A stretch of 64,000 bases of DNA, from NCBI GenBank assembly GCA_947452555.1, contig CANGDH010000001.1:124001-188000 (forward strand), written 5' to 3'. Shown here in pieces: positions 1,945 to 52,842 of the stretch (its first letter is position 1; each line of letters starts with the position of its first letter). The position numbers and the translations under genes are program-made. This stretch comes from Bacteroidota bacterium (GTDB lineage Bacteria; Bacteroidota; Bacteroidia; Chitinophagales; Chitinophagaceae). The notes beneath the pieces are model-generated. The model was not told where the DNA came from, made no database searches, and saw only the letters and a program-made list of their open reading frames with translations.

Positions 1945-1976
1945 TTTGGTTAAAAATATTGAATACCTTAATTTTG
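1945..1976 (+). promoter_or_regulatory. Predicted Bacteroidota sigma-A-type promoter for trp leader: TTTG (1945-1948), 20 nt, TAATTTTG (1969-1976)
   Basis: Matches the -33 TTTG / -7 TAnnTTTG consensus with 20-nt spacing, directly before the leader ORF. Confidence 0.65.
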
Positions 1977-1983
1977 TATTCGA

Positions 1984-2040
1984 ATGAAAACAATAAACAA
2001 TTTTTGGTGGTGGCATACAAACTCCGTTGGGGTATTGTAG
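1984..2040 (+). CDS. trpL: trp operon leader peptide MKTINNFWWWHTNSVGVL (18 aa)
   Basis: ATG-to-TAG ORF with three consecutive TGG codons (2005-2013), placed between a promoter and an intrinsic terminator before trpE; below the ORF track size cutoff. Confidence 0.88.
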   Translation: MKTINNFWWWHTNSVGVL

Positions 2041-2069
2041 TGACATAGCCATATTGTCAAGATATACAT

Positions 2070-2105
2070 AAACCCCGACATGCAATGTCGGGGTTTATTT
2101 TTTTT
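2070..2105 (+). terminator. trp attenuator terminator
   Basis: Perfect 12-bp stem aaaccccgacat (2070-2081) / atgtcggggttt (2085-2096), loop gca, then T8 (2098-2105). Confidence 0.92.
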
Positions 2106-43206: not shown

Positions 43207-43296
43207 TTAATATTGGACTATTAGTTCTGCCCCTCAAAAGGCTTAGTTTGCCGACTAATAGTTATCAAACGTTTTCATATGGCAAGCAATCGTTAA

Positions 43297-43328
43297 AGAC
43301 CTCCCGTTTCTACGGGAGGTCTTTTTTT
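43297..43328 (+). terminator. Intrinsic terminator downstream of small lipoprotein
   Basis: 11-bp stem agacctcccgt / acgggaggtct, loop ttct, T-run. Confidence 0.92.
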
Positions 43329-43461: not shown

Positions 43462-43469
43462 TATCTTTG
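43462..43469 (+). promoter_or_regulatory. Predicted -7 element TATCTTTG for the aromatic leader
   Basis: Exact TAnnTTTG match, 4 nt before the leader ATG; no convincing -33 TTTG at usual spacing. Confidence 0.5.
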
Positions 43470-43473
43470 TCTC

Positions 43474-43560
43474 ATGATGAAAGCAAATAGCAACTGGTTT
43501 TACTTTTTCTTTTATTTCTACTTTAAACAAAGTAGCCGGGTAGTATTTGTAAAAGCTTAA
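43474..43560 (+). CDS. Aromatic-amino-acid leader peptide MMKANSNWFYFFFYFYFKQSSRVVFVKA (28 aa)
   Basis: Unbroken ORF with an uninterrupted W-F-Y-F-F-F-Y-F-Y-F run, followed by an intrinsic terminator and then pheA; absent from the ORF track. Confidence 0.88.
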   Translation: MMKANSNWFYFFFYFYFKQSSRVVFVKA

Positions 43561-43581
43561 AGAATTAACTAAATATACGAT

Positions 43582-43609
43582 CCCGGCCCACTAAGCCGGG
43601 TTTTTTTTT
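43582..43609 (+). terminator. Attenuator terminator upstream of pheA
   Basis: cccggc (43582-43587) / gccggg (43595-43600), loop ccactaa, T9 tail. Confidence 0.9.
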
Positions 43610-43655
43610 GATTTGATAGAGGGAAAGAATAAGATAAAATGAATTGGATTTTAAG

Positions 43656-44492
43656 ATGAATAAAAAAGTAACAATACAGGGTTATGAAGGAAGTTTCCAT
43701 CAAGTGGCAGCTAGACAATTCTTTGGTAAGGATGTATCGGTTATTACTTGTGACACTTTTAGAGAAGTGGTGAAGATAGGCGCTGATCCAAAACTTTCTG
43801 ACGGAGCTGTAATGGCAATTGAAAATTCCATTGCCGGAAGCATCTTGCCTAATTATAATTTGTTACAAAAAAGCAAGTTGCAAGTTATCGGGGAAGTGTA
43901 TTTGTCAATCAGTCAAAATTTGTTGACTTACCCTGGTGTTAAATTGGAAGATATTAAGGAAGTGCATAGTCATCCAATGGCCATTTTGCAATGTCTTGAT
44001 TATTTAGAAAAACATAATTGGAAATTGGTTGAATCGGAGGATACTGCATTGAGTGCAAAACTGGTGCACCAACATAAAAGTAAACATGTAGCAGCTATCG
44101 CAAGTAAACTGGCGGCGCAGTTATATGACTTAAATGTAATCACCCCAGACATCCATACTTTAAAAAACAATATCACTCGTTTTTTGATTATGGTGCCTAG
44201 TACCAATAAAGTGGTCATTGAAAATGCGGACAAAGCGTCTATCTATTTTCAAACCGATCACTCAAAAGGTATTTTGTCAAAAGTGTTGGCAAAGATTGCG
44301 CAAGGCGGGGTGAATTTGAGCAAGTTGCAAAGTATGCCCATTCCAGGTAGTACTTTCAAATATGGGTTCTATGCAGATTTAGAGTTTGAGAATAATAAAC
44401 AAATTGAAAAAGTTTTAGCATCTCTTCAAGAGTTGACTAAAAGTTTTAAAGTTTTTGGATTGTATAAAAAAGGAAAAGTTGTAAAAGGCTAA
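43656..44492 (+). CDS. pheA: Prephenate dehydratase with ACT domain
   Basis: VTIQGYEGSFHQVAARQFF, AIENSIAGSILPNYNLL, NNITRFLIM, C-terminal ACT region; ATG 43656 preferred over TTG 43644. Confidence 0.93.
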   Translation: MNKKVTIQGYEGSFHQVAARQFFGKDVSVITCDTFREVVKIGADPKLSDGAVMAIENSIAGSILPNYNLLQKSKLQVIGEVYLSISQNLLTYPGVKLEDIKEVHSHPMAILQCLDYLEKHNWKLVESEDTALSAKLVHQHKSKHVAAIASKLAAQLYDLNVITPDIHTLKNNITRFLIMVPSTNKVVIENADKASIYFQTDHSKGILSKVLAKIAQGGVNLSKLQSMPIPGSTFKYGFYADLEFENNKQIEKVLASLQELTKSFKVFGLYKKGKVVKG

Positions 44493-44494
44493 CT

Positions 44495-45655
44495 ATGAAT
44501 TGGACATTATCACATAGGCTAGAGGGGATTGGTGAGTATTATTTCTCAACCAAATTGCGCGAAATTGACGAACTCAATAAAGCGGGTAAACAAATTATTA
44601 ATTTGGGTATTGGAAGTCCCGATTTGCCACCTCATCCAGACGTGATTAAAGTGTTACAAGAAGAATCAGCTAAGGACAATGTCCATGCTTATCAATCTTA
44701 TAAAGGTTCTCCAGTTTTGAGAGAAGCCATTGCTGAATGGTATAAAAAGTATTACGCGGTCTCCATAGCGCCCGCAACTGAAATACTTCCATTACTAGGA
44801 AGCAAGGAAGGCATCATGCACATTTGCATGACCTACCTAAATCAAGGAGATCAGGTCTTAATACCTAATCCTGGTTATCCTACGTATACAAGTGCAGTTA
44901 AGTTGGCAGGGGGCACCCCGCTTTACTATGAGCTAACTGCCGAGAACAATTGGGCACCTGACTTTGAAAATTTAGAAAAATCGGATTTATCAAAAGTGAA
45001 GTTAATGTGGGTGAACTATCCGCATATGCCTACCGGCCAAATTCCTACGCAACAATTATTTGAAAAGTTAGTAGCGTTTGGCAAGAAGCATCATATTTTA
45101 ATTTGTCATGATAATCCTTACAGTTTCATTTTGAATGAGCAACCCATGAGTTTGTTATCGGTGGAAGGCGCGAAGGAAGTAGTGATAGAGTTGAACTCTT
45201 TAAGCAAAAGCCAAAACATGGCAGGCTGGAGAGTGGGAATGTTGATTGCTGCAGAAGAAAGGGTCAATGAAATTCTAAGATTTAAATCCAATATGGATAG
45301 TGGTATGTTTTTACCTGTGCAATTAGCAGCAGCAAAAGCATTAAGCTTAGAAAAATCTTGGTATGATTCAGTAAATAAAATTTATACTGAACGTCGTGAA
45401 AAAGTTTTTGAACTGTTAGACACATTAGGTTGTGCATTTTCAAAACAACAAGTAGGGATGTTTGTTTGGGCTAAAATACCTGCGATTTATAAAGACGGTT
45501 ACGCTTTAAGCGATAAGGTTTTATATGAAGCAAATGTGTTTATTACACCTGGTGGTATTTTTGGTTCAGCTGGTAATGAATATATCCGTGTGAGCTTATG
45601 CGGTTCCATGGAAAAATTTAGTGAAGCTATTAAAAGAGTTAAAGCATGCGTTTAA
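44495..45655 (+). CDS. Class I/II PLP aminotransferase, probably aromatic/aspartate-type
   Basis: NLGIGSPDLPPHPDVI, IPNPGYPTYTSAVKLAGG, SLSKSQNMAGWRVG; operon context. Confidence 0.9.
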   Translation: MNWTLSHRLEGIGEYYFSTKLREIDELNKAGKQIINLGIGSPDLPPHPDVIKVLQEESAKDNVHAYQSYKGSPVLREAIAEWYKKYYAVSIAPATEILPLLGSKEGIMHICMTYLNQGDQVLIPNPGYPTYTSAVKLAGGTPLYYELTAENNWAPDFENLEKSDLSKVKLMWVNYPHMPTGQIPTQQLFEKLVAFGKKHHILICHDNPYSFILNEQPMSLLSVEGAKEVVIELNSLSKSQNMAGWRVGMLIAAEERVNEILRFKSNMDSGMFLPVQLAAAKALSLEKSWYDSVNKIYTERREKVFELLDTLGCAFSKQQVGMFVWAKIPAIYKDGYALSDKVLYEANVFITPGGIFGSAGNEYIRVSLCGSMEKFSEAIKRVKACV

Positions 45656-46485
45656 CAGTAATTGGTATTGGTTTAATTGGAGGCTCTTTGGCCTTGACAC
45701 TAAAGCGTAAAGGTTTAGTGAGCAAAGTCATTGGAGTAGACAACAATCCAGTGCATCAGGAACAAGCATTGAAATTAGGTATCGTTGACGAGATTATGTC
45801 TTTGGAAGAAGCTGTAAAATCATCTGACTTAATTGCCATTGCAACACCTGTAAATATTGCTGAAAAATTATTGCCAACTATTTTAGATTTGATTGACAAA
45901 CAAGTAGTGTTTGATTTAGGTTCAACTAAGGAGCGCATTGTCAACATTGCAAAGGCACACACAAAAAGTGGCCGATTTGTTCCAACTCACCCAATGTGGG
46001 GTACAGAATTCAGTGGTCCTAGTGCGGCTCAGGAAGACGCATTTAAGGAAAAAGCTGCTGTAGTTTGTAATAAAGAGCAAGTAGATGAAGATGCACTTAA
46101 ATTAGTTGAACAAGTATATCAAACACTAGGTATGCATATTTTATACATGGACGCTGTAAAGCATGATATCCATGTGGCTTATGTGAGTCATATATCACAT
46201 ATTACTTCTTTTGCATTGGCTAATACCGTGTTAGAGAAGGAAAAAGAGTCGGATGCTATTTTTGAATTAGCGAGTGGTGGTTTTGAAAGCACAGTGCGTT
46301 TGGCTAAGTCCAATGCTGCAATGTGGGTTCCCATCTTCATGCAAAATAAAGAAAATGTATTGGACGTATTGAATGAGCATATTAGTCAGTTACGCAAGTT
46401 TAAATCTTGTCTTGAAAAAGAAAATTTTGAATACTTGTCTGACTTAATTGAGAATGCGAATGGAATTAAAAGAATTTTAAAATAA
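45646..46485 (+). CDS. tyrA: Prephenate dehydrogenase
   Basis: VIGIGLIGGSLALTLK, PTHPMWGTEFSGPSAA, DAVKHDIHVAYVSHISHI. Confidence 0.93.
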   Translation: MRLTVIGIGLIGGSLALTLKRKGLVSKVIGVDNNPVHQEQALKLGIVDEIMSLEEAVKSSDLIAIATPVNIAEKLLPTILDLIDKQVVFDLGSTKERIVNIAKAHTKSGRFVPTHPMWGTEFSGPSAAQEDAFKEKAAVVCNKEQVDEDALKLVEQVYQTLGMHILYMDAVKHDIHVAYVSHISHITSFALANTVLEKEKESDAIFELASGGFESTVRLAKSNAAMWVPIFMQNKENVLDVLNEHISQLRKFKSCLEKENFEYLSDLIENANGIKRILK

Positions 46486-46518
46486 AATTCTAATTAAAAG
46501 AAAAGTAAAAAAACAAAA

Positions 46519-48324
46519 ATGAAGAAAACAGAAGAGATGGAAAATACAAATGAATTGATAGAGGCCGTTAAGTCGAAAAAGACATTCGTGGAAATTGGAA
46601 TAAATGAACAATTAGTTAAGGCTGTTACAGAATTAGGATATACACATGCTACTGAAATTCAAGAGCGTTCAATTCCAGTTTTAATAAGTGGAACAAAGGA
46701 TTTTATTGGTTTAGCACAAACAGGTACAGGTAAAACAGCTGCGTTTGGTTTGCCATTATTGCAGTTAATCAAAACTGCAGACAAATTTCCTCAAGCTTTG
46801 GTGGTTTGTCCAACAAGAGAATTGTGTATGCAAATCGTAAACGAATTGAATTTGTTTAAAAAGCATATACCAGGTTTACAAGTATTAGCAGTTTATGGCG
46901 GTACTTCAATTGGATTACAAATTAGAGACTTGAAAAGAGGTATTCAAATTATTGTAGCTACTCCAGGTCGTTTAATTGACTTGATAGAAAGAAAAGCAAT
47001 TAATTTAGAGCAAATCGAGTATGTAGTATTAGATGAGGCAGATGAAATGTTGAACATGGGATTCCAAGAAGACATTGAATTTATTTTAAAGAATACACCT
47101 AACAGAGAAAGTATTTGGTTATTTAGTGCAACAATGCCAACTGAAATCAGAAAAGTAAGTAAGCGTTACATGAAAGAGCCGGTAGAAGTAACTATTGGTA
47201 AAGTGAATGCAACCAATAAAAGTATTGATCATCAATATTATGTTACCTCTGCACAATATCGTTACGAGACTTTAAAAAGAATTATTGATTTCAATCCAGG
47301 TATTTATGGTATCATTTTCACACGTACTAAGGCAGATGCACAAGACGTTGCAGCTCGTTTAACACGTGAAGGATATGATATAGATGCGATTCATGGCGAC
47401 TTAACGCAACAACAACGCGATAGAGTAATGGGTCAGTTTAGAGACAAGACTTTACAATTATTAATTGCAACTGACGTAGCTGCTCGTGGTATTGACGTAA
47501 AAGGGATTACACATGTAATCAACTATGAATTACCAGATGACGTTGAAGTATACACACATAGAAGTGGCCGTACAGGTCGTGCGGGTAGTCAAGGTATTTG
47601 TATCTCAATTGTACATGCAAGAGAATCATACAGATTACGTCAAATTGAGAACATCAACAAAAGCACTTTTCATAAATTAGATATCCCTAGTGGTAAGGAT
47701 GTTTGTAGAAAACAATTCTTCCACGTAATGGACAAGTTAATGTCAACAGACGTGAGTCATGGTGATTATGAAACTTATGTACCAATGTTAGCGGAGAAAT
47801 TTGCAGACATGACTAAGGAAGAAATTTTGAAAAGAGTAGCTGCTTTAGAATTCAATCGTTTCTTAAGCTATTATGAAAATGCTGCCGACTTAAATGTTAG
47901 AGCTGCTGAAAGATCTAATGGTCGCAGAGAACCAATGCAACAACAAGATCGTAACCGTGATAGAGGTCGCAATGAATTCCAAGATCGTGGAGACAGCCGC
48001 GGTGATCGTGGTGGAGACAGAGGTGGACGTAGCCAATCAAGAGGCGCTGCAGGTACAACACGTTTGTTTGTCAACTTAGGAACTAAGGACGGTTTTTACA
48101 AAGCAAGTTTCTTACAATACATTTTAGATATGAGTGAATTGAAAAAAGAAGCATTAGGTAAAATTGACATGAGAGACATGAATAGTTGGATCGAAATTGA
48201 ATCAGGTTCTGCTAAGAAAATGATTACTGCTATTGATGGTAAAAACTATAAAGGTCGTCGTATTCGCATGAATGATGCAGATAGTGGTGGTCCAAAAGGG
48301 TTTTCAAATAATAATGAAGGATAG
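46519..48324 (+). CDS. deaD: DEAD-box RNA helicase with DbpA/CsdA-like RNA-binding domain and R/G/D-rich linker
   Basis: AQTGTGKTAAFGLP, PTRELCMQI, VLDEADEMLNMGF, SATMP, HRSGRTGRAG; C-term TRLFVNLGTKDGFYKASFLQYI. Confidence 0.94.
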   Translation: MKKTEEMENTNELIEAVKSKKTFVEIGINEQLVKAVTELGYTHATEIQERSIPVLISGTKDFIGLAQTGTGKTAAFGLPLLQLIKTADKFPQALVVCPTRELCMQIVNELNLFKKHIPGLQVLAVYGGTSIGLQIRDLKRGIQIIVATPGRLIDLIERKAINLEQIEYVVLDEADEMLNMGFQEDIEFILKNTPNRESIWLFSATMPTEIRKVSKRYMKEPVEVTIGKVNATNKSIDHQYYVTSAQYRYETLKRIIDFNPGIYGIIFTRTKADAQDVAARLTREGYDIDAIHGDLTQQQRDRVMGQFRDKTLQLLIATDVAARGIDVKGITHVINYELPDDVEVYTHRSGRTGRAGSQGICISIVHARESYRLRQIENINKSTFHKLDIPSGKDVCRKQFFHVMDKLMSTDVSHGDYETYVPMLAEKFADMTKEEILKRVAALEFNRFLSYYENAADLNVRAAERSNGRREPMQQQDRNRDRGRNEFQDRGDSRGDRGGDRGGRSQSRGAAGTTRLFVNLGTKDGFYKASFLQYILDMSELKKEALGKIDMRDMNSWIEIESGSAKKMITAIDGKNYKGRRIRMNDADSGGPKGFSNNNEG

Positions 48325-48380
48325 TCCTTCGGTAGTTAAAACAAAAAATAAATATCTTAAATACAAAAATTGCTTAAAAA

Positions 48381-49466
48381 ATGGGAACCTTAACTGAACA
48401 ACAACAAAAAGTAAGCACGTTATTAAAAAAAGCACCATTAATTATTTCTGGTCCTTGTAGTGCAGAAACAGAAGAACAAGTAATGCAAACTGCTATTAGA
48501 TTAGCAGCTACTGGAAAAGTAGATATCATGCGTGCTGGTATCTGGAAACCAAGAACAAGACCGGGAAGTTTCGAAGGTATTGGAACTAAAGGTTTGCCTT
48601 GGATGCAACAAGCTAAAAAAGAAACTGGTTTGCCAATTGCAGTGGAAGTTGCAACTGCAAAACAAGTGGAAGATGCATTGCATTTTGATGTTGATGTATT
48701 ATGGGTGGGAGCTCGTACTACAGTAAATCCTTTTAGTGTGCAAGAAATTGCAGATGCATTAAGAGGGGTTAAAGTTCCTGTTTTAATTAAGAACCCGTTA
48801 AACCCTGATTTAGAATTATGGGTTGGTGGGATGGAACGTATTGCGAAAGCAGGCATTGAAGACTTAGGTTTAATACATAGAGGATTTAGTTCTTATGGGA
48901 ATACAGATTTCCGTAACGCTCCAATGTGGCATTTAGCTATCGAAATGAAGCGACGTTACCCAGGAATTCCAATGATCAATGACCCTTCACATATTTGTGG
49001 ACGTCGTGATATTTTACAAGAAGTAGCTCAACAGGCAATGGACTTAGACTTTGACGGGTTAATCATTGAATCTCATATTGATCCAGACAATGCATGGAGT
49101 GATGCAAAACAACAAATCACGCCAGAAGTATTGAAGGAAATGTTGGAGGCAATCCGTTGGAGAAAAGAAGATAATAATTCAGAAGATTTCCATAGTGCTT
49201 TAGAGAAATTCCGTCAACAAATTAACCAATTAGATGACGAATTATTACAAGTATTGTCTTCACGTATGAAAGTGGCACAAAAAATCGGTGAATACAAAAA
49301 GAACAACGATATCACAATTTTACAAACTAGCCGTTGGAATGAAATTTTAGAAAGAGCCATTTCAAAAGGAGAAAAATTAGGATTGACCGACGAGTTTGTT
49401 ACTAAATATATGGACGCAGTTCATATGGAAAGTATCAATCATCAAAATAAAGTAATGAATAGCTAG
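48381..49466 (+). CDS. Bifunctional DAHP synthase / chorismate mutase type II
   Basis: GPCSAETEEQVMQTA, RAGIWKPRTRPGSFEG, NDPSHICGRRD, C-terminal LEKFRQQINQLDDELLQVLSSRMKVAQKIGEYK. Confidence 0.94.
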   Translation: MGTLTEQQQKVSTLLKKAPLIISGPCSAETEEQVMQTAIRLAATGKVDIMRAGIWKPRTRPGSFEGIGTKGLPWMQQAKKETGLPIAVEVATAKQVEDALHFDVDVLWVGARTTVNPFSVQEIADALRGVKVPVLIKNPLNPDLELWVGGMERIAKAGIEDLGLIHRGFSSYGNTDFRNAPMWHLAIEMKRRYPGIPMINDPSHICGRRDILQEVAQQAMDLDFDGLIIESHIDPDNAWSDAKQQITPEVLKEMLEAIRWRKEDNNSEDFHSALEKFRQQINQLDDELLQVLSSRMKVAQKIGEYKKNNDITILQTSRWNEILERAISKGEKLGLTDEFVTKYMDAVHMESINHQNKVMNS

Positions 49467-49511
49467 GACTTTAAATTTAATGATTTAAGTACTATTTAAA
49501 TTTTGACAGGT

Positions 49512-50534
49512 ATGAAAAATTGGAAAGTAAAATTTTCGAGCGCGACAGTAACATTTGTATTAGATGGCAAATTTGCAGCTATTGATAAAATGGTGGATAA
49601 AGCAAATGCAATTTATATTACAGACGAGAATGTATATGCCTTACATGAGAAAAAATTTAAAGGAAAAAAAACTATAGTGATTCCTTCAGGGGAAGAACAT
49701 AAGCATCAAGCAACTGTTGACTTTATTATTGAAGCGTTATTGAATTTTGGAGCTACACGACAAGCAGTTTTAATTGGCGTTGGTGGTGGAGTGGTAACCG
49801 ACATGGTAGGTTATGTTGCAGGTGTTTACATGCGAGGTGTGGCGGTTGGCTTTGTGCCTACCACCATACTTGCTATGGTGGACGCTTCTATTGGCGGAAA
49901 GAATGGCATAGATGTTGGGATATATAAAAATATGGTTGGATTAATAAGACAACCTGCTTTTATATTACATGACCTAAGTTTTTTACAATCTTTACCAAAA
50001 TACCAATGGGAAAACGGATTTGCTGAAATCATCAAACACGCAGCTATCAAGGATGCAAAAATGATGAAGGAATTGAGTGAAAACGATTTGGCTTTTTATC
50101 AAAAAAACACAAAAGCATTAACTGTGCTTATTGAAAAAAATGTGCAGATTAAAGTCAAAGTGGTACAAAAGGATGAATTCGAAAAAGGCGATAGGAAATT
50201 ATTAAATTTTGGACATACACTGGGGCATGCTATTGAGAATGAACATGCATTATTACATGGTCATGCTATTAGTATAGGAATGGTGTATGCTGCAAAAATC
50301 TCACAAGTATTACAAGGATTTACAGGTACAGGATTATTAGTAGACACTCTTAAGCAATATGGCTTGCCAACGGCAATGCATTTTAATGTGGAAGAAGCGA
50401 TGGTAGTGATGCAAAAAGATAAGAAAAAAGCTACGGCAGGAATGCAGTATGTTTTATTGAATAAGATGGGTAAGGGAGTTATTGAAACCATCCCTATGAA
50501 AACATTACAAAAATTGATAAACTTGTATTCATAA
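49512..50534 (+). CDS. aroB: 3-dehydroquinate synthase
   Basis: VIPSGEEHKH, GVGGGVVTDMVGYVAGVYMRGV, VDASIGGKNGID, NFGHTLGHAIE. Confidence 0.95.
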   Translation: MKNWKVKFSSATVTFVLDGKFAAIDKMVDKANAIYITDENVYALHEKKFKGKKTIVIPSGEEHKHQATVDFIIEALLNFGATRQAVLIGVGGGVVTDMVGYVAGVYMRGVAVGFVPTTILAMVDASIGGKNGIDVGIYKNMVGLIRQPAFILHDLSFLQSLPKYQWENGFAEIIKHAAIKDAKMMKELSENDLAFYQKNTKALTVLIEKNVQIKVKVVQKDEFEKGDRKLLNFGHTLGHAIENEHALLHGHAISIGMVYAAKISQVLQGFTGTGLLVDTLKQYGLPTAMHFNVEEAMVVMQKDKKKATAGMQYVLLNKMGKGVIETIPMKTLQKLINLYS

Positions 50535-50535
50535 T

Positions 50536-51813
50536 ATGAGAGCGATTGTTTATCCAGGAACATTAAAGGGGGAGCAGGTTGCCCCTGCAAGTAAAAGTAG
50601 CATGCAAAGAGCATGTGCTGCTGCTTTATTGCACGTGGGGGATACATTGATTTTAAATCCTGGTCATTCAAATGACGATTTAGCAGCCATTGATGTTATA
50701 CAAAAACTAGGGGCTACTGTTGATCAATCAGCAACTCAAATTAAAGTAAGTTCAAAAGGAGTTCAGCCAATAGGCCCAGAAATGAATTGCGGAGAAAGTG
50801 GTTTAGGAATTAGAATGTTCACGCCCATAGCAGCCTTAAGCAGCAATGCAATTTTGATTAATGGGAATGGTAGTTTGTTAAAAAGGCCAATGCATTTTTT
50901 TGATGAAATATTTCCATTATTAAGTGTGAAAGTGGATTCTCAAAAAGGTTTTTTGCCAATTGCTATTCAAGGTCCTTTAACGCCCGCTACCATTACGGTT
51001 GACGGATCTTTAAGTTCTCAATTTCTAACAGGATTATTAATGGCCTACGCAGCTAGTGATGCACAAAATGCTGTGATACATGTGTTGAACTTGAAAAGTA
51101 AACCCTATATTGATTTAACATTGTCTGTGTTAAATAGTTTTGGTTGGAAGGTGAAACATAATAACTATGAAAGTTTTGAGTTCTTGGCGCATGCGCCATT
51201 AGCAGCTCATATTGAATATTCGGTAGAAGGAGATTGGAGTGGTGCAGCATTTTTATTAGTAGCAGGTGCTATTGCAGGTCCTATTAAAGTAAAGGGTTTG
51301 CAATTAGATTCTACTCAGGCGGACAAAGCAGTAATGCAAGCATTGAAAAATGCAAATGCACCTATTGAAATTCTAGAAGATGGAATTGTAATTGGGGTTA
51401 ATGATACGGGGGCATCTTTAATTGCATTTGAATTTGACGCAACAGATTGTCCTGATTTATTCCCTCCATTAGTAGCGTTAGCTGCAGTATGTAAAGGGAT
51501 ATCAACAATTAAAGGAGTAAGTCGTTTAGCACATAAGGAAAGTGATAGAGGGCTGACATTACAGACAGAGTTTTTCAAACTTGGAATTAGTATTCAATTG
51601 GAAGGAGATTTAATGAAAATACATGGCGGAACACCAATAGAATCAGCTACTGTATTTTCACAACATGATCATAGAATTGCGATGGCTTGTGGAGTTGCTG
51701 CTTTAAAGTCTAATGGTCCTGTAGTAATTACGGAAGCAGAAGCAATCAATAAGTCATACACTGATTTTTTTGATCATTTAGCTCAATTAGGTGCAAAAGT
51801 TGAAATCGATTAA
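50536..51813 (+). CDS. aroA: 3-phosphoshikimate 1-carboxyvinyltransferase
   Basis: PASKSSMQRACAAALL, GESGLGIRMFTPIAAL, SSQFLTGLLMA, HKESDRG, DHRIAMACGVA. Confidence 0.94.
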   Translation: MRAIVYPGTLKGEQVAPASKSSMQRACAAALLHVGDTLILNPGHSNDDLAAIDVIQKLGATVDQSATQIKVSSKGVQPIGPEMNCGESGLGIRMFTPIAALSSNAILINGNGSLLKRPMHFFDEIFPLLSVKVDSQKGFLPIAIQGPLTPATITVDGSLSSQFLTGLLMAYAASDAQNAVIHVLNLKSKPYIDLTLSVLNSFGWKVKHNNYESFEFLAHAPLAAHIEYSVEGDWSGAAFLLVAGAIAGPIKVKGLQLDSTQADKAVMQALKNANAPIEILEDGIVIGVNDTGASLIAFEFDATDCPDLFPPLVALAAVCKGISTIKGVSRLAHKESDRGLTLQTEFFKLGISIQLEGDLMKIHGGTPIESATVFSQHDHRIAMACGVAALKSNGPVVITEAEAINKSYTDFFDHLAQLGAKVEID

Positions 51814-51843
51814 TTTTCTTAACTTGTAATATAGAAATAAGAC

Positions 51844-52842
51844 ATGAATAATTTTGGAACCCTATTTAAAGTACAAATTTTTGGTGAGTCACATGGTGCT
51901 TGCGTTGGTATTGTTATTGATGGTTGTCCTGCTGGATTGCCATTAGTACAAGCAGACTTTGTTAATGATATGGAGCGCAGAAAAGGAGGTAAACAAAAAG
52001 GGACTACTCCAAGACAGGAGGACGATATGCCAATATTTAAGTCTGGTTTATTTAATGATACTACTACAGGAGCCCCTATAACAATGTTATTTGAAAATAA
52101 TAATACGCGTAGTGGTGATTATGAGAAACAAAGAGCTGTTCCAAGGCCAGGACATTCTGACTTTACAGCACACCATAAATTTGGTAGTTTTGAGGATTAT
52201 AGAGGTGGTGGACATTTTAGTGGAAGGTTAACTGCCGCATTAGTTGGAGCAGGTGTTATTGCTAAAAAATTATTGAATGACATACAAGTTGAATCACATA
52301 TTGTAAGTATTGGAGGAGAAACGGATGTAGAAAAAGGGTTGCAAAAGGCAATTGATCAAAAAGATAGTGTAGGTGGAATAGTGGAGTGCGTTGTAAAAGG
52401 ATTGCCAATTGGATTGGGAGAACATTTTTTTGACTCGGTAGAATCATTAATTAGTCATGCAGTTTTCGCAATACCTGCAATTAGAGGCATTGAATTTGGC
52501 ACAGGCTTTGCTGCAGCAAATATGTTTGGGGTAGACCATAATGACCCTATTTTAGACGCAACAGGGAAAACGAAAACAAACCATGCGGGTGGCGTAGTTG
52601 GAGGGTATACCAATGGGAATGATTTGGTTTTCAGAATTGCCGTTAAGCCAACTTCTTCTACTCCTAAGCATCAAACTACATGGAATTGGGAAACCAATGA
52701 ACAAGAGAATTTCTCAGTAAAAGGAAGGCACGATTTATGCATAGCATTAAGAGTGCCAGTTGTTTTAGAAGCAGTAACTGCAATTGTTTTAGCAGACCTA
52801 ATGTTATTAGAACAGCATATTCCAAGAATTATAAAAAAGTAA
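51844..52842 (+). CDS. aroC: Chorismate synthase
   Basis: FGESHGACVGIVIDGCPAG, RPGHSDFTAHHKFG, DYRGGGHFSGRLTAALVGAG, KTKTNHAGGVVGG. Confidence 0.96.
   Translation: MNNFGTLFKVQIFGESHGACVGIVIDGCPAGLPLVQADFVNDMERRKGGKQKGTTPRQEDDMPIFKSGLFNDTTTGAPITMLFENNNTRSGDYEKQRAVPRPGHSDFTAHHKFGSFEDYRGGGHFSGRLTAALVGAGVIAKKLLNDIQVESHIVSIGGETDVEKGLQKAIDQKDSVGGIVECVVKGLPIGLGEHFFDSVESLISHAVFAIPAIRGIEFGTGFAAANMFGVDHNDPILDATGKTKTNHAGGVVGGYTNGNDLVFRIAVKPTSSTPKHQTTWNWETNEQENFSVKGRHDLCIALRVPVVLEAVTAIVLADLMLLEQHIPRIIKK

Follow-up and report, generated by a model that had tools for sequence, protein, structure and literature searches.

Classical attenuation has long been known, including in leaders that carry several kinds of control codons; in the ilvGMEDA and thrABC leaders of E. 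coli, whose mixed codons are branched-chain or Thr/Ile rather than Phe/Tyr, shortage of any one of the amino acids concerned relieves termination. Such attenuators were reportedly sought in bacteria by a comparative approach in 2010 (Lopatovskaya et al.), and part of the present finding may already have been predicted there. Among the closest described systems is the E. coli pheA attenuator (pheL; Rfam family RF01859, Phe_leader), in which a leader peptide with control codons, the segment pairings 1:2, 2:3 and 3:4 and a terminator precede pheA. A short leader with both Phe and Tyr codons ahead of an aromatic pathway gene has also been described, namely AroR, located before aroF in C. glutamicum, where stalling on a Phe-Tyr-Phe leader relieves attenuation (PMC11802643, PMC4046766); AroR responds to Phe, and Tyr availability is without effect (PMC11802643). 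In the same species, the ilvBNC leader peptide is described as having no ribosome binding site, its mRNA being leaderless (PMC4046766 citing Morbach 2000; PMC11857589). A structured 5' element conserved in Flavobacteriaceae lies upstream of pheA in F. psychrophilum, and its authors saw clues for leader-peptide attenuation in amino acid operons (ISME Commun 2021; PMC9723704); the accessible text of that report gives neither the peptide nor the antiterminator, specificity or covariation of the pheA element, which is probably the same element as ours in another family.

In the window, i.e., the whole 64,000-nucleotide stretch of Chitinophagaceae DNA analysed here (124,001-188,000 of contig C1), the leader ORF of the pheA operon (43474-43560, + strand), as read directly from the sequence, encodes MMKANSNWFYFFFYFYFKQSSRVVFVKA*. 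Its codons 43498-43524 spell F Y F F F Y F Y F, that is, six Phe and three Tyr, and a single Trp codon (TGG, 43495-43497) adjoins this run on its 5' side. Of the two ATGs, the one at 43477 rather than that at 43474 is probably the conserved start, since sister Sediminibacterium-like genomes have the second ATG only. The F/Y run has no second copy in the 2.28 Mb draft genome, even when three mismatches are allowed. Downstream of the ORF comes an intrinsic terminator (43582-43609, +) composed of CCCGGC, a CCACTAA loop, GCCGGG (43595-43600) and nine T residues (43601-43609), and then the first structural gene, pheA, coding for prephenate dehydratase (43656-44492, +; Pfam PDT, PF00800, E 4e-54). 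The region 44495-52842 (+) holds, according to Pfam, genes for a class I/II aminotransferase, prephenate dehydrogenase (tyrA), a DEAD-box helicase and a DAHP synthase-chorismate mutase, followed by aroB, aroA and aroC. The preliminary description of this DNA had named the same ORF, with its nine F/Y codons after one Trp, and the same terminator with T9 ahead of pheA, all of which the letters bear out; its proposed operon content (pheA, tyrA and the common chorismate pathway) agrees with the Pfam assignments. The aminotransferase gene follows pheA in 72 of 73 named relatives and tyrA is present in 71 of the 73. The helicase gene between tyrA and the DAHP synthase gene (46519-48324, +) encodes an RNA helicase with a DbpA RNA-binding domain; in 32 of the 73, a helicase was matched downstream within the DNA examined. 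Upstream of the leader, after a small Ala/Thr-rich lipoprotein-like gene, a strong terminator (43295-43324, +) would shield the leader promoter from upstream transcription.

How does this locus relate to the described families? An Rfam scan of the window returned only a tRNA above the gathering score, and no T-box riboswitch or other regulator. RF01859 was the best sub-threshold match by score and aligned to the window leader over its full length; with 22.6 bits (E 0.12) for a gathering score of 55 bits, the leader falls outside the family, although it would work like a Phe_leader. It differs from E. coli pheL by having Tyr in addition to Phe codons, by an ORF that usually runs through segment 2, by its Bacteroidota promoter, and by the predicted control of tyrA and aro genes as well as pheA. 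As for AroR, it has three control codons only, precedes a DAHP synthase gene, belongs to the Actinobacteria and answers to Phe and not to Tyr; its Phe-Tyr-Phe leader is nevertheless a precedent, so that the mixed sensor, presented at first as unusual, is not without one (PMC11802643).

The preliminary description had counted a lack of conserved F/Y richness in relatives against its reading, and had proposed a search upstream of pheA for F/Y-rich mini-ORFs followed by terminators. We searched PheA in 100 genomes of the family (71 hits), 150 of the phylum and 198 of the class, and added 80 named loci, the best-matching of which belong to Sediminibacterium sp. and other Bacteroidota MAGs (84-87% protein identity), which places the present Chitinophagaceae genome near Sediminibacterium. 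Taken together, the surveys of family and phylum plus the named loci yielded 174 distinct upstream regions with 170 candidates, one of which (L221) was a false assignment and was removed; an F/Y-rich in-frame mini-ORF is thus found in 169 of 173 distinct regions, corresponding to 161 distinct leaders, and the control-codon run is conserved in these 169, with a terminator detected in 167. The richness is therefore conserved. Such leaders precede pheA in Chitinophagaceae and in other families of the Bacteroidia: they were found at 25 of 25 pheA loci from other families (e.g., MASNRFYFSNNFYFFFSRSQDCAMVI and MLQNVWQGFYFYFYYFSKRRGFVSCI) and at 17 of about 31 loci from more distant ones. Outside the class, a leader was seen only in G162, G112 and G229, which have closer PheA proteins. 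In the more distant set, five genomes of one group have lost the leader, and there pheA itself directly follows the promoter motif TAnnTTTG. At the loci L298, L299, L301, L305 and L309, from one family of the class (f44) in which the leader is absent, pheA starts within about 15-20 nt of TAnnTTTG; at two others (L132 and L133, family f8), pheA comes directly after a gene whose end resembles aroA (EPSP synthase).

Phe, Tyr and Trp make up 8.6 of 10 codons in frame, versus 2.4 and 2.8 in the two alternative frames; given this bias and the conservation in relatives, we rejected a chance ORF. The same figures bear on the idea that the tract, which is indeed U-rich, is a binding element for a protein or a small molecule, the ORF being incidental. 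We consider this extremely improbable, as the richness is confined to one frame, the run is in frame with an ATG lying just after a promoter, and no Rfam family exceeds its threshold at the site.

The RNA of the window leader can be divided into four segments. Segment 1 (43483-43506, +; MFE fold and duplex prediction) comprises GCAAATA (43483-43489), CTGGT (43494-43498) and TACTTT (43501-43506), and pairs with segment 2 (43529-43550, +; folds and duplex prediction, with covariation in relatives), which reads AAAGTA-GCCGGG-TA-GTATTTGT and lies inside the leader ORF. Segment 3 (43575-43587, +) is made of ATAC (43575-43578) and of CCCGGC (43582-43587), which also serves as the terminator's 5' arm; segment 4 is the GCCGGG of the 3' arm. 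In the antiterminator, GCCGGG (43535-43540) and GTAT (43543-43546) of segment 2 pair with CCCGGC and ATAC of segment 3, and this 2:3 pairing excludes the 3:4 pairing of the terminator; together with 1:2, the classical set is complete. Over its whole length, the window leader does not surpass shuffled sequences in folding (z -0.58), and its own antiterminator is weaker than those of the family (0.82 vs. a median of 1.00). The 1:2 pairing beats codon-order shuffles in 164 of 165 leaders, with a weak result in the swap test (54 of 165 in the best 10%).

Swapping segment 2 among all genomes was uninformative, as most of them share the same CCGGG stem, and information came from restricting the comparison to the 36 distinct leaders whose terminator differs from the common TCCCGG stem. 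In 28 of these 36, the leader's own segment 2 ranks among the best 10% of all segments 2 for pairing with its own segment 3, where 3.6 would be expected (binomial p ~1e-21, a value to be read keeping in mind that relatives are not independent). Covarying pairs include AGAGGCTTTGTA/ATAAAGCCTC, TGAGACTTTGTA/TATAAAGTCTCGA, GATCGGGT/ACCCGATC and GGCGGGA/TCCCGCC. The reading frame of the CCGGG in segment 2 is 0 in 58 leaders, 2 in 44 and 1 in 11, and in 3 the motif even lies past the stop codon, which indicates that the RNA is selected, and not the tail of the peptide; we rejected the peptide tail as a conserved element on that ground. A nascent peptide arresting the ribosome in the manner of SecM or TnaC, and sensing a ligand instead of tRNA charging, could have been suspected from the conserved hydrophobic aromatic peptide and from recurrent tails such as SSRVVFVKA and RPGMLLLK. 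RNA segment 2, with its three reading frames and its occasional position after the stop, nevertheless accounts for these tails, and the run interchanges F and Y freely, which makes peptide arrest highly improbable.

The reading that we favour, and that we hold to be very probable, places the pheA-tyrA-aro operon under a ribosome-mediated transcription attenuator; the ingredients of such a device, that is, an ORF with control codons, a terminator before pheA, a covarying antiterminator and properly placed codons, are all found by computation. In the proposed mechanism, transcription would start at the leader AUG or a few bases before it, and a ribosome would begin translating immediately. With ample charged tRNA-Phe and tRNA-Tyr, the ribosome would pass the F/Y stretch and cover segment 2; segments 3 and 4 could then pair, and RNA polymerase would terminate before pheA. 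Should the charging of tRNA-Phe or tRNA-Tyr be low, the ribosome would stall on an F or a Y codon and cover segment 1; segment 2, then free, would capture segment 3, no terminator would form, and the operon would be transcribed.

An earlier simulation based on the equilibrium probability of the terminator was dropped: its contrast was low, and it put the stem of the window sequence in the wrong register. We then masked the RNA up to 12 nt past the A-site codon and folded the rest as it would be before segment 4 exists; one has to bear in mind that this is equilibrium folding, which ignores the kinetics of transcription. The mean probability that segment 3 is captured by upstream RNA is 0.98-0.99 with the ribosome at F/Y codons (0.99 with the last F/Y in the A site), and it falls to 0.87 one codon past the last F/Y, 0.42 two codons past it, 0.21 four codons past it and 0.12 once the stop codon is reached. 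The last start that permits antitermination lies, in each of the 165 leaders, at least 13 nt past the first base of the final F/Y codon, with a mode of 15-17 nt, and this limit matches a ribosome footprint; no F or Y codon is thus found beyond the productive boundary, and the run extends just as far as stalls should remain productive. Two kinds of control codon, F and Y, each placed where a stall is predicted to be productive, are what is expected of a multivalent attenuator. Since every F/Y codon precedes the boundary, the model predicts a Phe-or-Tyr OR gate, in which shortage of either amino acid alone should suffice. Folding also predicts that, on an RNA free of ribosomes, most of segment 3 remains sequestered until segment 4 emerges, so that basal termination would depend on kinetics or on steady translation. 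Conservation, the three-way covariation of antiterminator and terminator, and this ribosome-position folding all support the Phe-plus-Tyr attenuator put forward in the preliminary description.

Whether Tyr contributes to the response deserves a separate discussion. Over all leaders, the run residues amount to 887 F, 572 Y, 42 W and 218 others, and at least two F plus at least two Y codons occur in 164 of 165 leaders. Unlike F/Y neighbours make up 67% of cases for 48% expected, an alternation that exceeds chance; codon order is also constrained by the 1:2 pairing, and alternation alone is thus no proof of dual sensing. An attenuator that senses Phe only, with Tyr codons present for the pairing of segment 1 or because Tyr starvation is rare, would account for this constraint and for the excess of Phe over Tyr codons, and AroR, with its FYF leader, behaves in this way (PMC11802643). 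Such a device is less expected to retain Tyr codons so constantly or to have tyrA in the operon of nearly all named relatives, and stalls at Tyr codons are predicted by folding to be as productive as those at Phe codons; we regard it as rather unlikely. The term multi-aromatic, used initially for this leader, stands for Phe and Tyr. It fails for Trp as a core control codon, which we rejected because only 46 of 165 leaders have W; in some of them Trp remains conceivable as an additional signal. Indeed, the window's own leader has its W just before the run, its operon includes genes of the common pathway, and W stall positions are upstream of the productive boundary, all of which would suit a gate answering to Trp shortage as well as to that of Phe and Tyr, as the operon feeds the shared chorismate pathway. 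The same architecture is nonetheless found in the majority of relatives, which are without W, and G, S, T, R and N outnumber W at the non-F/Y positions within the run, so that a gate for all three amino acids seems quite unlikely.

The Phe-plus-Tyr attenuator has a further feature in its promoter. A -7 element, TATCTTTG, matching the TAnnTTTG of the Bacteroidota primary sigma factor, is read directly at 43462-43469 (+). In F. psychrophilum, this motif is placed at -12 to -5 from the transcription start site (PMC9723704); applying the same spacing to the final G of the box at 43469, the predicted +1 falls at about 43474, for a 5'UTR of 0-3 nt. No clear -33 element was seen at the leader promoter; the family logo displays TT(T)G about 20-23 nt before the -7 box. 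We took the 119 distinct Chitinophagaceae leaders with a strict TAnnTTTG within 60 nt, and derived positions from the promoter box: the ATG lies 5-9 nt after the G of the box in 101 of them (predicted 5'UTR of 0-4 nt), and the predicted 5'UTR is shorter than 10 nt in 111. In leaders from other families, the distance to the box is mostly 18-25 nt, or a strict box is lacking. As a background, 6 of 29 ordinary genes have their ATG at 5-9 nt, in a set of only 29 cases that is not clean. The Chitinophagaceae pheA leader is thus predicted to be leaderless or nearly so. The C. glutamicum ilvBNC leader, with its leaderless translation, belongs to the Actinobacteria, in which leaderless mRNAs are common, whereas leaderless mRNAs or very short 5'UTRs represent 3.7% of mRNAs in B. 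thetaiotaomicron (PMC7366714) and 5.5% in F. psychrophilum (PMC9723704).

Searching genome-wide for a promoter, an ATG and five F/Y codons proved too permissive, with about as many matches as the control. We then scanned about 1.25 of the 2.28 Mb, in an unbiased way, for TAnnTTTG, an ATG within 3-12 nt, a mini-ORF and a terminator, and obtained seven distinct places, three of which are the pheA leader, a Trp leader and a His leader; the last two are likewise predicted, from their layout, to be leaderless or nearly so. The Trp leader, MKTINNFWWWHTNSVGVL (window 1984-2040), lies before trpE. Its attenuator (window 1969-2099, +) has the -7 box TAATTTTG, with the ATG at 1984, 8 nt after the box, and a pairing is possible between GTTGGGGT within the ORF and ACCCCGAC, part of the terminator TAAACCCCGACATGCAATGTCGGGGTTTA. 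The His leader, MTLNKHIHHHHLLSKG, lies some 4.3 kb upstream of the window, at L328:91 (= L236:19691); it has a similarly near-leaderless layout, is accompanied by a terminator and stands about 145 nt before an ORF reading as hisG, with hisD and hisC next. The scan for the His pattern is noisy and gave several leader-like matches, e.g., MNIQVHIHHHH.

Within the literature searched, four points are new: the class-wide F-plus-Y composition, the covariation seen in the switch, the limit resembling a footprint, and a predicted leaderless start common to three attenuators. The broad proposition joining them, a Phe/Tyr OR gate throughout the Bacteroidia together with leaderless Phe/Tyr, Trp and His leaders in Chitinophagaceae, is advanced tentatively, as a possibility that we place slightly short of an even chance. 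The locus provides a concrete, testable regulator of aromatic amino acid synthesis in a phylum whose amino acid regulation is little studied, and it is a case in which to ask whether mixed control codons sense two amino acids or one, the FYF leader of AroR having proved negative for Tyr. If true, immediate initiation would couple ribosome and polymerase without a Shine-Dalgarno sequence, which would amount to a general attenuation design for a phylum with little Shine-Dalgarno initiation; to the problem of tight transcription-translation coupling under such conditions, the predicted leaderless leader peptides would be a simple answer.
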